Origin: Candidatus Bathyarchaeota archaeon
GTDB lineage: Archaea > Thermoproteota > Bathyarchaeia > 40CM-2-53-6
Reading direction: 5' to 3'
DNA length: 33,341 nucleotides
Assembly (NCBI GenBank): GCA_005888755.1
Contig: VBBQ01000039.1
Coordinates: 1 to 33,341, forward strand
Position 1 is the stretch's first letter. Every line of letters starts with the position of its first letter. Both the position numbers and the translations under genes were made by a program. The notes below the pieces were generated by a model. It worked only from the letters and a program-made list of their open reading frames with translations, was not told the origin of the DNA and did not search any database. Shown here piece by piece: positions 8,816 to 32,004 of this stretch.

Positions 8816-9700
8816 CAATTTCTCGCCAGAATCTCTGATGATCCACAATCTCCCACGCTTCTTGAAAATCCGTCGCCACTCAGCCCCAGCCTTTGAGGGA
8901 CCGAACCTGCGTAAGAGTTCTAGCGCAATCAACATTTTCCGCTGTTTCCTGCGAATCGCGAAGCCAATACGGTCAGCAAATAATTCCTGGTCACTACGCC
9001 GCCCGATCTTCAGATAATAGCAGGGGACTTTACTCCACATGCTTCGATGCTTCTTTCCTTCCAGCAACCGCGAATCGATCCCGAACCTTGACTTCATCAG
9101 GCGACTGATCCATTTCAGCAATCGAACATCTGTGTTTACTATGACAATGTAGAAACCGAATGATGAATTCCTAGAACACCCTGCGGAAATTGCCGGAGAA
9201 CCCTCAGCATCAGCAAACCCCTGGACAAATTCGGATGGAAACCGATCCACCGTTTTCCGAATGGCAGCGGTATATGACAGGTATTCATACAGAATGCGAC
9301 TCCAAACTCTAACTAGATAGAACCCATGAGAATCCTTCCTAACTATCTTCGGCTTCCCCAAGACAGAGCCAAAGCAGGAACAGACTTTTTCCGCAAAATC
9401 CAGGTCCTTGACTCTCAACCTAAGAAGATAGTGATACGAGGTTGTCCGTATCAGATCCCCATCGCCAAGCATAGCGCCCGCAAGATAGCTTAGCGACGGC
9501 GAAGGAGTGAGGGTCGGGATGACAAAACTCCCTAATGGCGAATTCTTACCTGTGATCCAATTGTAAACTGTCGAACTAGGGAGGTCTAGCAGCTTGGCAA
9601 TCGTCTCGCAAGAAACCCGGCGATCGTGTCTCAGCCGGAGGACCCTGGCATACACCCTAACGCGAGCGTCGAGGGAGAGATCCTGCAATCTTCTTGGCAT
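8786..9700 (-). CDS. Free-standing LAGLIDADG homing endonuclease
   Basis: 304 residues. An N-terminal helix-turn-helix (about 11-52, with SCETIAKLLDLPSSTVYNWI) is followed by a two-motif LAGLIDADG domain: YLAGAMLGDGD at about 72-82 (catalytic acid in GDG) and FVQGFADAEG at about 158-167 (DAEG form, as in active monomeric enzymes). The region near 255-290 is basic. Such enzymes make site-specific double-strand breaks and spread introns or themselves. The frame runs into the neighbouring tRNA-Thr(GGU): its last residues, WSPGRDLNS, are the antisense of the tRNA acceptor and T arm, and the stop lies in the T stem/variable-loop border. The true protein may once have ended earlier. It sits beside, not inside, the tRNA introns. 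Both acidic motifs are intact, so activity is possible. Confidence 0.88.
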   Translation of the reverse strand: MPRRLQDLSLDARVRVYARVLRLRHDRRVSCETIAKLLDLPSSTVYNWITGKNSPLGSFVIPTLTPSPSLSYLAGAMLGDGDLIRTTSYHYLLRLRVKDLDFAEKVCSCFGSVLGKPKIVRKDSHGFYLVRVWSRILYEYLSYTAAIRKTVDRFPSEFVQGFADAEGSPAISAGCSRNSSFGFYIVIVNTDVRLLKWISRLMKSRFGIDSRLLEGKKHRSMWSKVPCYYLKIGRRSDQELFADRIGFAIRRKQRKMLIALELLRRFGPSKAGAEWRRIFKKRGRLWIIRDSGEKLWSPGRDLNS

Positions 9701-11009: not shown

Positions 11010-11711
11010 ATGAGCTGGGTAGAAAAGGCGAGGCTCAGCGCAGCAGCGCAGGCCATACGCGAACTGAGAGACCGCACCACCGTCGGCCTCGGCAGCGGAA
11101 CCACCGTCCTCAAAGCCCTCGACCTAGCCGCTGAGAGAATCAAGAAAGAACATCTCAACATCCACTGGGTCCCGACAAGCTACCAGATGGAGATCGCAGC
11201 AAGAAGACTCGGCCTGAAAACAACCACGCTATCCGAGAACACCGAACTCGACCTAGCCATAGACGGCGCCGACCAAGTCCAGTGGAGATCACTCGACCTC
11301 GTCAAGGGCGGCGGCGCAGCTCTCCTTAGAGAGAAGATAGTAGACTCGACAACCAAGAAGCTCATCATCATTATCGACGAAAGGAAACTTGCCAAGACAC
11401 TCGGCGGAGAACAACCAATCCCTGTAGAGATTACACCGTTCGCCTACCACGCCACCCTAGCAAAGATCAGCAAAATATCCGAGAAAGCCACGTTGCGCGA
11501 AGCACCAAGCGGCAAGGTAGGACCGGTAATAACTGACAATGGCAACCTGATCATAGACGCATATTACCGGAACCTCCGACGGCCTGATATCATCAATGAA
11601 AAACTCAGGAAGATCCCTGGAGTAGTGGAAACTGGGCTCTTCCTAGAGATGTGCGATGTCGCGTATGTTGGCCGGAAGGATGGTAAAGTGGATATTCTAA
11701 GACGAAGCTAG
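11010..11711 (+). CDS. rpiA: Ribose-5-phosphate isomerase A
   Basis: 233 residues, the normal length for RpiA. It interconverts ribose 5-phosphate and ribulose 5-phosphate in the cytoplasm, supplying ribose for nucleotides. Family motifs are clear: the phosphate-binding GLGSGTTV at about 27-34, DLAIDGADQV at about 81-90 (D85 and D88 correspond to the catalytic-site aspartates), and KGGGAALLREKI at about 99-110 (K99 and the catalytic base E108). VPVEITPFA-type sequence follows near 140. The ATG at 11010 sits 10 nt after the preceding stop and gives a normal N-terminus, so translation is likely coupled to the coiled-coil gene. Phosphoglycerate kinase lies 0.8 kb downstream but is separated by a minus-strand gene and a tRNA. 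Confidence 0.95.
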   Translation: MSWVEKARLSAAAQAIRELRDRTTVGLGSGTTVLKALDLAAERIKKEHLNIHWVPTSYQMEIAARRLGLKTTTLSENTELDLAIDGADQVQWRSLDLVKGGGAALLREKIVDSTTKKLIIIIDERKLAKTLGGEQPIPVEITPFAYHATLAKISKISEKATLREAPSGKVGPVITDNGNLIIDAYYRNLRRPDIINEKLRKIPGVVETGLFLEMCDVAYVGRKDGKVDILRRS

Positions 11712-12270: not shown

Positions 12271-12397
12271 TGCCGGGGGCGGGAGTCTCGGACATCGCTG
12301 TTTTCGAACCCGCGACTTCCGGATCTCTCACGTTGAAGATATGAGTCCGGCGCTGTGGTTCCCCTTTCGGGGTCTGACCAGGCTGAGCCACCCCGGC
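12271..12397 (-). tRNA. tRNA(CAU), probably elongator Met, with three introns
   Basis: Read on the minus strand from 12397: acceptor GCCGGGG pairs with CCCCGGC at 12278-12272, discriminator A at 12271, no encoded CCA. The anticodon stem CCGGA (12350-12346)/TCCGG (12323-12319) holds CAT at 12343-12341. The T stem is GCGGG (12313-12309)/CCCGC (12283-12279). Three insertions interrupt it. Inferred intron 1 is 12373-12355 (19 nt, position 22/23), containing a CCCC-GAAA-GGGG hairpin. Inferred intron 2 is 12339-12325 (15 nt, 37/38), with central helix CTCA/TGAG. Inferred intron 3 is 12302-12285 (18 nt, T loop 59/60), with central helix TTCG/CGAG and an ACA-GCGA-TGT hairpin. Removal gives a standard 75-nt tRNA with loop TTCGAAT. 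Intron 1's central helix has one C-A mismatch. CAU could also be a tRNA-Ile2 with a modified C34; the sequence alone does not settle this. Confidence 0.9.
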
Positions 12398-12420: not shown

Positions 12421-12430
12421 GCTAAAAGCA
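12421..12430 (-). promoter_or_regulatory. TATA-like box of the tRNA(CAU) gene
   Basis: On the minus strand this reads TGCTTTTAGC, 24-33 nt before the tRNA 5' end at 12397, the expected place for an archaeal TATA element. It lies back-to-back with the likely promoter of the kinase gene (12445-12450). Confidence 0.45.
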
Positions 12431-13789: not shown

Positions 13790-13875
13790 GCCCCGGTAGC
13801 TCAGTGGTAGAGCGACGGCTTTGTAAAAGCCAAAAAAGCCGTAGGTCATGGGTTCAACCCCCATCCGGGGCTCCA
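13790..13875 (+). tRNA. tRNA-Thr(UGU) with one canonical intron
   Basis: Acceptor GCCCCGG (13790-13796) pairs with 13865-13871; discriminator T at 13872; CCA encoded at 13873-13875. D stem GCTC/GAGC is uninterrupted (13799-13802, 13810-13813). Anticodon stem ACGGC (13815-13819)/GCCGT (13838-13842) encloses anticodon TGT at 13822-13824. The inferred intron is 13826-13836 (11 nt, position 37/38): TTTG (13820-13823) pairs with CAAA (13831-13834) and leaves two 3-nt bulges, a minimal BHB-like structure with only a 4-nt loop. The mature length is 75 nt with CCA. The stop codon of the convergent MFS gene begins at the very next base. Confidence 0.95.
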
Positions 13876-28934: not shown

Positions 28935-29033
28935 GATAGGTGGCGAATCAGTTCACACTACTGCAGTCGGATTCGCCAAGAGGCACTGTAAAGTCTTCGG
29001 TTGGTTGCCGTTCACTTGCATCTGACTCTCGAG

Positions 29034-30299
29034 ATGAAATACTTGAAGCTTTATCACGATAATAGTTTGCTCGCCATCAAGTCAGGGAGACAGAGCTACT
29101 ACCCCAGTCAAAGGGTGAAGGAGTTGCTCGAAATCTTCCGTTGCATGGTCAATGACTGCATGAAAACTGGGCTAGAGACAGACACTTCATCGCTGAAAAG
29201 ACTTTCAACGTTATCCTACCGACAACTCAAGGGGTACAAGTGCCCATCAGCATACCGTCTCGCTGCCATATCTAGGGCTGCAGGTATCCTCGCCTCGAGA
29301 AAAAAATCGCTCAGACGAGGCTACCCAACAAAAACGCCGTACATGTCCAAACTTGTTCTCATTTCGTGCTACGGATTCAAGATAGAAGTTGGAAATCTCA
29401 GAATTCCTCTCGGCGAGAGGAAGTTCGAATTTATCCTGCTAACTCCTCACCTCGTCCGGATCCTCTCCGATCCACTGTTGAATGTTCGATCCTTCACACT
29501 GAACGAAACTATTGTCTCCCTCTGCTTCTCGAAAGAAGTAGTGCAAGTCAAGTGCTCAGGAACGGTAGGCGTGGATAGGAACCTGCGTAATCTGACCATG
29601 GGCAATCAAAACCAAGTGACAAAATTTGACCTTTCAGACGCAGTGAGAATCGCCGATACGACTAGAAGGATCATAAGTTCGTTCAAGCGTGACGATGATA
29701 GAATCAGAGAAGAGCTTAGTTCAAAATATGGCCGGCGAAGACACAATCGCATCCAGCACACCCTCCACAACACAACAAAAGCTATCGTGGCCGACGCCCT
29801 CAAGCACAAGGAGGCTATTGTCCTTGAGAACATCGAGGGCATCCGACGTCTCTACCGCAGAGGCAACGGGCAGGGTCCAAAACGGAGGCACCGGATGAAC
29901 AGCTGGAGCTACGGTGAGGCTCAACGCCAGCTAGTATACAAGGCCCAATGGGTGGGATTGCCGATTATTCGTCTGAGCAGAAGCGAGACTAGGGGTACGA
30001 GTATCATCTGTCCTCGATGCGGGGAGAGACTCCAAGAGGATAGACGACTAAGGCGAAAATTGTGGTGTCAGAGCTGTAGATGTATAATGGACCGGGACGC
30101 GGTTGCAGCGATCAACCTGTCTCGGCGCGGACGGTTGAGGTTCGACCGTTCACGGGCCCCCGTTGGGCTGCAAGGCGGAGCAGTTGAAGCTGTGAAGGGG
30201 AATCCGATTACTACGGTAATCCCCGGAGTCGATGCCCCGAAGCCAAGTCTAGACTCGACCAACCCCAGACTTGACAGAACCAGAATACCTTTTCATTAG
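29034..30299 (+). CDS. tnpB: TnpB RNA-guided nuclease (IS605/IS607 OrfB), stand-alone
   Basis: 421 residues from ATG 29034 (a TTG at 29001 would add 11). The chosen start gives the typical MKYLKLYHD opening. RuvC acids in this numbering: D181 in GVDRNLRN, E265 in VLENIEGI, and D355 in MDRDAVAAIN. A zinc ribbon sits between (CPRC at about 326-329, CQSC at about 345-348). TnpB is a DNA nuclease guided by an omega/reRNA that overlaps the gene's 3' end; two hairpins found there fit (30206-30221 and 30244-30273). No TnpA transposase is visible within reach, so the element may be non-autonomous or captured by the host. All catalytic residues are intact. Confidence 0.9.
   Translation: MKYLKLYHDNSLLAIKSGRQSYYPSQRVKELLEIFRCMVNDCMKTGLETDTSSLKRLSTLSYRQLKGYKCPSAYRLAAISRAAGILASRKKSLRRGYPTKTPYMSKLVLISCYGFKIEVGNLRIPLGERKFEFILLTPHLVRILSDPLLNVRSFTLNETIVSLCFSKEVVQVKCSGTVGVDRNLRNLTMGNQNQVTKFDLSDAVRIADTTRRIISSFKRDDDRIREELSSKYGRRRHNRIQHTLHNTTKAIVADALKHKEAIVLENIEGIRRLYRRGNGQGPKRRHRMNSWSYGEAQRQLVYKAQWVGLPIIRLSRSETRGTSIICPRCGERLQEDRRLRRKLWCQSCRCIMDRDAVAAINLSRRGRLRFDRSRAPVGLQGGAVEAVKGNPITTVIPGVDAPKPSLDSTNPRLDRTRIPFH
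30206..30273 (+). ncRNA. Possible reRNA/omega-RNA scaffold overlapping the tnpB 3' end
   Basis: Two perfect stems lie in the last 100 nt of tnpB: GATTAC (30206-30211)/GTAATC (30216-30221) with a TACG loop, and CAAGTCT (30244-30250)/AGACTTG (30267-30273) with a 16-nt loop. Guide RNAs of TnpB are encoded exactly here and end at the element's right border. The 3' border and guide cannot be placed without a related copy. Confidence 0.4.
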
Positions 30300-31872: not shown

Positions 31873-32004
31873 GGGGCTGTCGGATAGCCAGGTCTAGAGG
31901 ACCAGGATATCCTCGATGCGTCCGGACAATCCGCGTGGCTTGGGAGCGATCTGTCGCGCCAGGAACCCACGAAATCGCAGGTTCAAATCCTGCCAGCCCC
32001 ACCA
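31873..32004 (+). tRNA. tRNA-Pro(UGG) with two introns (D-arm and anticodon loop)
   Basis: Acceptor GGGGCTG (31873-31879) pairs with CAGCCCC (31994-32000); discriminator A at 32001; CCA encoded at 32002-32004. T arm GCAGG/CCTGC with TTCAAAT. Anticodon stem CGTGG (31934-31938)/CCACG (31967-31971) with anticodon TGG at 31941-31943. Inferred intron 2 is 31945-31965 (21 nt, 37/38): CTTG pairs with CAGG and GCG/CGC forms the inner stem. Inferred intron 1 is 31897-31929 (33 nt, 22/23): inner stem GGAC (31899-31902)/GTCC (31920-31923); the central helix is imperfect. Removal restores D stem GGAT/ATCC and a 78-nt tRNA close to other archaeal tRNA-Pro. The exact D-arm junction could shift by a base, and two smaller introns are not fully excluded. 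Confidence 0.87.

Follow-up and report, generated by a model that had tools for sequence, protein, structure and literature searches.

A Three-Intron Elongator tRNA-Met Gene, Probably Functional, in an Intron-Laden Bathyarchaeia tRNA Set

The window, that is, the whole stretch of 33,341 nucleotides that was analysed, carries a tRNA(CAU) gene whose sequence and conservation mark it as real, conserved and probably functional. We read it, with a probability of about 0.95, as a functional and probably single-copy elongator tRNA-Met(CAU), predicted to be spliced from a 127-nt precursor by a heteromeric endonuclease. It is no isolated oddity: introns are unusually abundant in the tRNA set as a whole, of which this gene is typical. 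Three-intron genes of this kind are already known, though the lineage is one without a report that we could find; the genome-wide intron load and the four-intron tRNAs are more surprising. It is likely that this soil Bathyarchaeia tRNA set is among the most interrupted known (introns average about two per gene, with 40 of the 42 parsed genes interrupted), that it includes genes with four introns, above the stated maximum of three (Phe here and in relatives, Trp in another family), and that introns have been gained or lost between congeners.

Results and Discussion

Structure and Detection of the tRNA-Met Gene

A complete cloverleaf and a tRNA identity emerge only once three introns are excised (table 1). 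The unspliced minus-strand sequence, read from 12397 to 12271, is GCCGGGG...CCCCGGCA; its four joined exons, GCCGGGGTGGCTCAGCCTGGTCAGAGCGCCGGACTCATAATCCGGAAGTCGCGGGTTCGAATCCCGCCCCCGGCA, make a product of 75 nt which ARAGORN identifies as tRNA-Met(cat) and in which all stems are paired (acceptor 7 bp, D 4 bp, anticodon 5 bp and T 5 bp). The first-pass annotation, made from the letters alone, had placed introns at 22/23 (about 19 nt), 37/38 (about 15 nt) and 59/60 (about 18 nt) and held that the stems pair perfectly only after their removal; its coordinates are exact. A BHB or relaxed BHB is present at every exon-intron border, with the geometry that had been described: all four central pairs form at 37/38 and at 59/60, the latter with 3-nt bulges AA^A and AC^T, and a single C-A mismatch accounts for the fourth position at 22/23. 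The GNRA caps pointed out on two of the introns are real in the window gene but are not conserved between species, and so are not a defining feature; we dropped them as an important one. At the T loop, a cut at 56/57, 57/58 or 58/59 yields TTCGACT and a cut at 59/60 yields TTCGAAT. The cut is thus ambiguous over four positions by sequence alone, with 59/60 the choice favoured both by BHB geometry and by most orthologues. In the upstream flank, GGAATSCTTTTAGC is common to the window and four other loci (L002, L004, L005 and L006), and a CTTTTAG motif is a candidate promoter element.

Table 1. Parts of the elongator tRNA-Met(CAU) gene, with window coordinates.
Feature	Position	Strand	Evidence
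Elongator tRNA-Met(CAU) gene, unspliced, 127 nt	12271..12397	-	Sequence, structure, ARAGORN
Exon 1, positions 1-22	12374..12397	-	Spliced product; near-invariant among orthologues
D-arm intron 22/23, 19 nt	12355..12373	-	Relaxed BHB (three of four central pairs form) with a perfect CCCC/GGGG inner helix
Exon 2, positions 23-37, anticodon CAU	12340..12354	-	Spliced product
Anticodon-loop intron 37/38, 15 nt, canonical site	12325..12339	-	4/4 central pairs
Exon 3, positions 38-59	12303..12324	-	Spliced product
T-loop intron 59/60, 18 nt	12285..12302	-	Central helix TTCG:CGAG
Exon 4, positions 60-73	12271..12284	-	Spliced product
CTTTTAG, TATA-like, candidate promoter element, ~25 nt 5' of the gene	12422..12428	-	Upstream-flank conservation

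The warning that a standard scan may miss the gene was borne out: neither ARAGORN, whether its intron option is on or off, nor Rfam RF00005 at the gathering cut-off reports the unspliced sequence. An intron-aware search does recover it: our purpose-written finder scores it 54.0, whereas the 460-nt region, dinucleotide-shuffled 2000 times, reached 43.1 at most, and 550 kb of reversed sequence gave nothing above 40.2. The MFE fold of the unspliced gene has BHB-like arms in the window species and is inconsistent in other species, for which reason it is not counted as evidence.

Conservation and Empty Intron Sites

Relatives were gathered through RpiA, encoded in the window at 11010-11711 (+), which led to 36 of 41 related genomes. 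The tRNA-Met gene adjoins rpiA in many of their contigs, some from the window's family and others from a second family of its order. Counting the window's own, 16 distinct sequences located next to rpiA, drawn from two families of this one Bathyarchaeia order, share the 22/23, 37/38 and 59/60 introns. Between the nearest species and the window the exons show no difference over 75 positions, but 5-7 of 52 intron positions have changed where the lengths are equal; in farther orthologues the intron lengths range over 19-23, 14-28 and 15-22 nt, respectively. Pairing persists through these changes. The inner-helix pairs at 22/23 shift from CG to TA, CG to GC and CG to TA with pairing kept in 15-16 of the 16 sequences, the first inner-helix pair at 37/38 is CG, TA or AT, and the four intron bases opposite T54-G57 keep the central pairing at 59/60 in all 16. 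The C-A mismatch in the 22/23 central helix is found in most of the genus, and six of the 16 sequences have a standard pair there. Since several of the sequences share ancestry, these changes represent few covariation events, not many; yet both sides of the pairs change.

Other Bathyarchaeia have varied intron sets, so that each of the three sites is uninterrupted in some relative: 22/23 in L100, L106 and L112, 37/38 in L029 and L106, and 59/60 in L100 and L163. Their tRNA-Met genes carry an intron at 45/46 only (L106, L107, L110, L116-L119, L122 and L123), at 30/31 only (L029), at both 30/31 and 45/46 (L016 and L023), at 37/38 only (L100 and L112), or at 22/23 plus 37/38 (L163). The uninterrupted relatives match the exon junctions predicted for the window gene, reading CTCATAATC at 37/38 and GGTTCGAA[TG]CCC at 59/60. 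One locus is discordant: the genome of L023 (G019) is assigned to the window's family, yet its tRNA-Met has the 30/31 and 45/46 introns seen in another family (L016), and its RpiA shares only 45% identity with the window's, the discordance being either a binning error or a gene replacement.

Identity of the Gene and Alternative Readings

A CAU anticodon is common to elongator Met, initiator Met and Ile2, the last with an agmatidine-modified C34, and on that ground the window gene might be one of the latter two. This is very unlikely. An initiator-type tRNA-Met is encoded separately in the host genome (contig C44, L050), reading AGCGGGG...GGGCTCATAACCC with introns at 47/48 and 59/60, whereas the window gene has no initiator features, the three consecutive G-C pairs at 29-31/39-41 being absent. 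An Ile2-type CAU gene, GGGCCCG...CGGGCCCA, from which the window gene is distinct, lies beside tRNA-Asn in congeners (L290-L292 and L294), and the host contig carrying tRNA-Asn (C28) ends where they have it. BLAST of the mature tRNA-Met against the host genome returned its own exons in the window and otherwise partial matches to other tRNAs; no second elongator tRNA-Met was found by this search of the 95% complete draft assembly, in which such a copy could be missing. The separate initiator gene, the Ile2-type gene of congeners and the BLAST result together point to the window gene as the elongator Met, with no spare copy seen.

The same results bear on the alternative raised at first pass, namely that the gene is a decayed copy with insertions and that a working gene lies elsewhere. 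Its being missed by standard finders and the draft state of the genome would fit such a pseudogene, but every stem is intact, the exons are conserved over two families while the introns drift and covary, and with the initiator gene separate and no other elongator Met in the assembly we consider decay extremely improbable. A milder departure would leave the gene as described and move a splice site, the T-loop cut falling between 56/57 and 58/59 (C59 for A59) or the 22/23 intron being processed at a neighbouring position. The sequence repeats at the T-loop boundary, and our intron-aware scorer prefers 56/57 in some congeners; nevertheless, in the window species 59/60 is the site that best accommodates a 4-bp helix flanked by two 3-nt bulges, and orthologues with other sequences (L006, L010, L012, L013 and L017-L019) choose 59/60, which makes a shifted cut unlikely. 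We retain the elongator tRNA-Met with introns at 22/23, 37/38 and 59/60.

Splicing Machinery

The host genome encodes two PF01974 proteins, paralogues of the splicing endonuclease. The copy on contig C46 (189-194 aa) has Aeropyrum pernix EndA (3p1z) as a match at E 4e-42, and Y, H and K align, in the segments FAVYxxGPGIDHAPFIV and VRKxF; we take these three to be the catalytic residues established for the family. The copy on contig C32 (176 aa) is a weaker EndA match and has no histidine segment. The two copies display the pattern of alpha-beta enzymes, and their assembly as two subunits is suggested by this sequence pattern. Alpha-beta endonucleases have been linked to non-canonical introns (PMC4090602, PMC4033280). 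We propose that the tRNA-Met gene would be transcribed as a 127-nt precursor, that a heteromeric endonuclease (catalytic alpha plus structural beta) would recognise three BHB-like junctions, one each in the D arm, the anticodon loop and the T loop, and cut after the second bulge base on each side of each intron, and that the four exons would be joined by the cell's RNA ligase and the spliced tRNA charged with methionine.

Intron Load of the Host tRNA Set

The host genome is a 2.0-Mb MAG, 95% complete, whose nearest named relatives are the Candidatus Bathyarchaeota MAGs BA_23, BA_25 and BA_3 (RpiA 92-94% identical); the soil habitat is our reading of depth labels of relatives, such as 30cm and 40cm. 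For the tRNA inventory, genome stretches seeded by Rfam and T-arm patterns were parsed for introns, a procedure that may miss genes. At least 42 tRNA genes were parsed, and these 42 carry 86 predicted introns (2.05 per gene; median length 22 nt), with 40 genes interrupted and 14 having three or more introns. In 80 of the 86, no more than one of the four central BHB pairs is missing. The six introns with no convincing BHB (Ile-GAT V arm, two in Glu-TTC, the 5' intron of Asp, Gln-TTG D arm and Ser-CGA) have hand-set or uncertain borders. Nine-nt V-arm "introns" had also been proposed in Leu genes; we discarded them, since they are simply the long variable arms usual there. Among the matches listed for the seeded stretches there was no gene for Ile2, Tyr, Gly-GCC or Gln-CTG. 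L048 resolves as Gly(TCC) with a 53/54 intron (border set by hand, product checked with ARAGORN), L037 as Arg(CCT) and L036 as Arg(TCT); the two Arg genes, on the plus and minus strands, respectively, have an apparent C33 in place of the usual U33.

ARAGORN assigns the expected isotype to all 42 spliced products, a consistency check and not an independent test, since some exon choices were made with its outcome in view; from the unspliced genes it reports anything at all in only five cases. Rfam at cut-off gives 16 tRNA matches in the host genome. For MAGs of this sort, tRNA counts, and the quality scores that use them, will therefore be too low. Rfam-detectable tRNAs number 6-19 per genome in the host genus, 8-30 in the order's other families and 14-37 in the class's other families, a trend that fits a heavier load in the host genus and is confounded by incompleteness and a stricter filter.

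Four-Intron tRNA Genes

The host tRNA-Phe(GAA) gene (L056; G000:C4:90839-91003, +) has four predicted introns, at 8/9, in the D loop, at 37/38 and at 46/47, and its orthologues in two further genomes (G010 and G011) likewise have four. Within this one genus, the 8/9 intron is present in L056, L295 and L300 and cleanly absent in L297-L299 and L301-L304; the seven genomes G002, G005-G009 and G012, devoid of it, read GCCGAGGTAGCTCAG straight through, exactly the predicted joined exons, and G024, devoid of both the 8/9 and D-loop introns, reads AGCTCAGCCTGGGAGAGC. This pattern appears to be a recent gain or loss. With single introns present or absent among such close genomes, intron gain, loss and relocation become testable at a fine scale. 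A different set of four (8/9, D loop, 37/38 and 59/60) occurs in tRNA-Phe of two genomes of another family, so that the four-intron tRNA-Phe loci, from the host genus and that family, are L056, L295, L300, L305 and L306. Four introns are also predicted in tRNA-Trp of G027 (L286), in a third family, and in the elongator tRNA-Met of the Asgard Borrarchaeum weybense (L126). Reviews and surveys state three introns per tRNA gene as the archaeal maximum; our search of the open-licence literature returned nothing relevant on archaeal four-intron tRNA genes, and no paper in it takes Bathyarchaeia tRNA introns as its topic.

Comparison with Other Intron-Rich tRNA Sets

Intron-rich tRNA sets have been described mainly from Thermoproteales and, recently, from some Asgards. 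Pyrobaculum calidifontis has 71 introns in 46 tRNA genes (PMC8450103), and its tRNA-Glu(UUC) and the tRNA-Pro(UGG) of P. islandicum have three introns each (PMC4390854). The first-pass annotation had multi-intron tRNAs as mostly reported from Thermoproteales and a few other TACK archaea; the present host is a Bathyarchaeia MAG outside Thermoproteales. The likeness to Thermoproteales genes extends to small BHB introns, canonical together with non-canonical sites, up to three introns per gene and an alpha-beta type endonuclease; the lineage, the soil host and the tRNA concerned differ, as do the average of 2.05 predicted introns for each parsed gene and the gene with four. In wetland-soil Asgards, the Atabeyarchaeia and Freyarchaeia, 92-95% of tRNA genes have introns, over half of them multiple, at non-canonical sites included (PMC11291895). 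These lineages are unrelated to the host, their three genomes together have 228 introns where our 42 genes have 86, and we found no mention there of a four-intron gene (PMC11291895). Caldiarchaeum subterraneum resembles the host genus in having non-canonical introns in the D, V and T arms and an intron that is present or absent within one population, but only 13 of its 45 tRNA genes are interrupted, three by multiple introns (PMC3293823). The red alga Cyanidioschyzon merolae has a tRNA-Ile(UAU) with three introns, in the D, anticodon and T arms, this being a eukaryotic nuclear gene for a different tRNA (PMC9602550). The host load stands at or above the highest that we found reported; counting methods differ between studies, so "highest" is a claim to test. 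The same or a heavier load in a soil Bathyarchaeia genus suggests that several lineages either evolved the trait or retained it.

Other Features of the Window and the tRNA Set

Three further tRNA genes of the window are interrupted: tRNA-Thr(TGT) at 13790-13872 (+) by an 11-nt intron at 37/38, ARAGORN reporting it as tRNA-Tyr(gta), and tRNA-Thr(GGT) at 8707-8812 (+) and tRNA-Pro(TGG) at 31873-32001 (+) by two introns each, one at 22/23 and one at 37/38. The 3' end of tRNA-Thr(GGT) overlaps that of an opposite-strand gene (8786-9700, -) for a homing-endonuclease-like protein with HTH and LAGLIDADG_3 domains, and a TnpB-like protein with a Cas12f1-like_TNB domain is encoded at 29001-30299 (+). 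Elsewhere in the genome, the 37/38 intron of tRNA-Trp (L057 and relatives) is 62-73 nt long, with a strongly conserved 3' half that reads GGGATGAGGAAATTCGGGAGCGCGTGAAGAT in the host genus; it is a possible guide RNA. Upstream of tRNA-Asn, at positions 7-42 of L047 (G000:C28), lies a 36-nt sequence, GAAGCTAACTCATCCGACGAAGAGTTAACAGAACCT, with many matches across genomes of the genus, some of them near contig ends.
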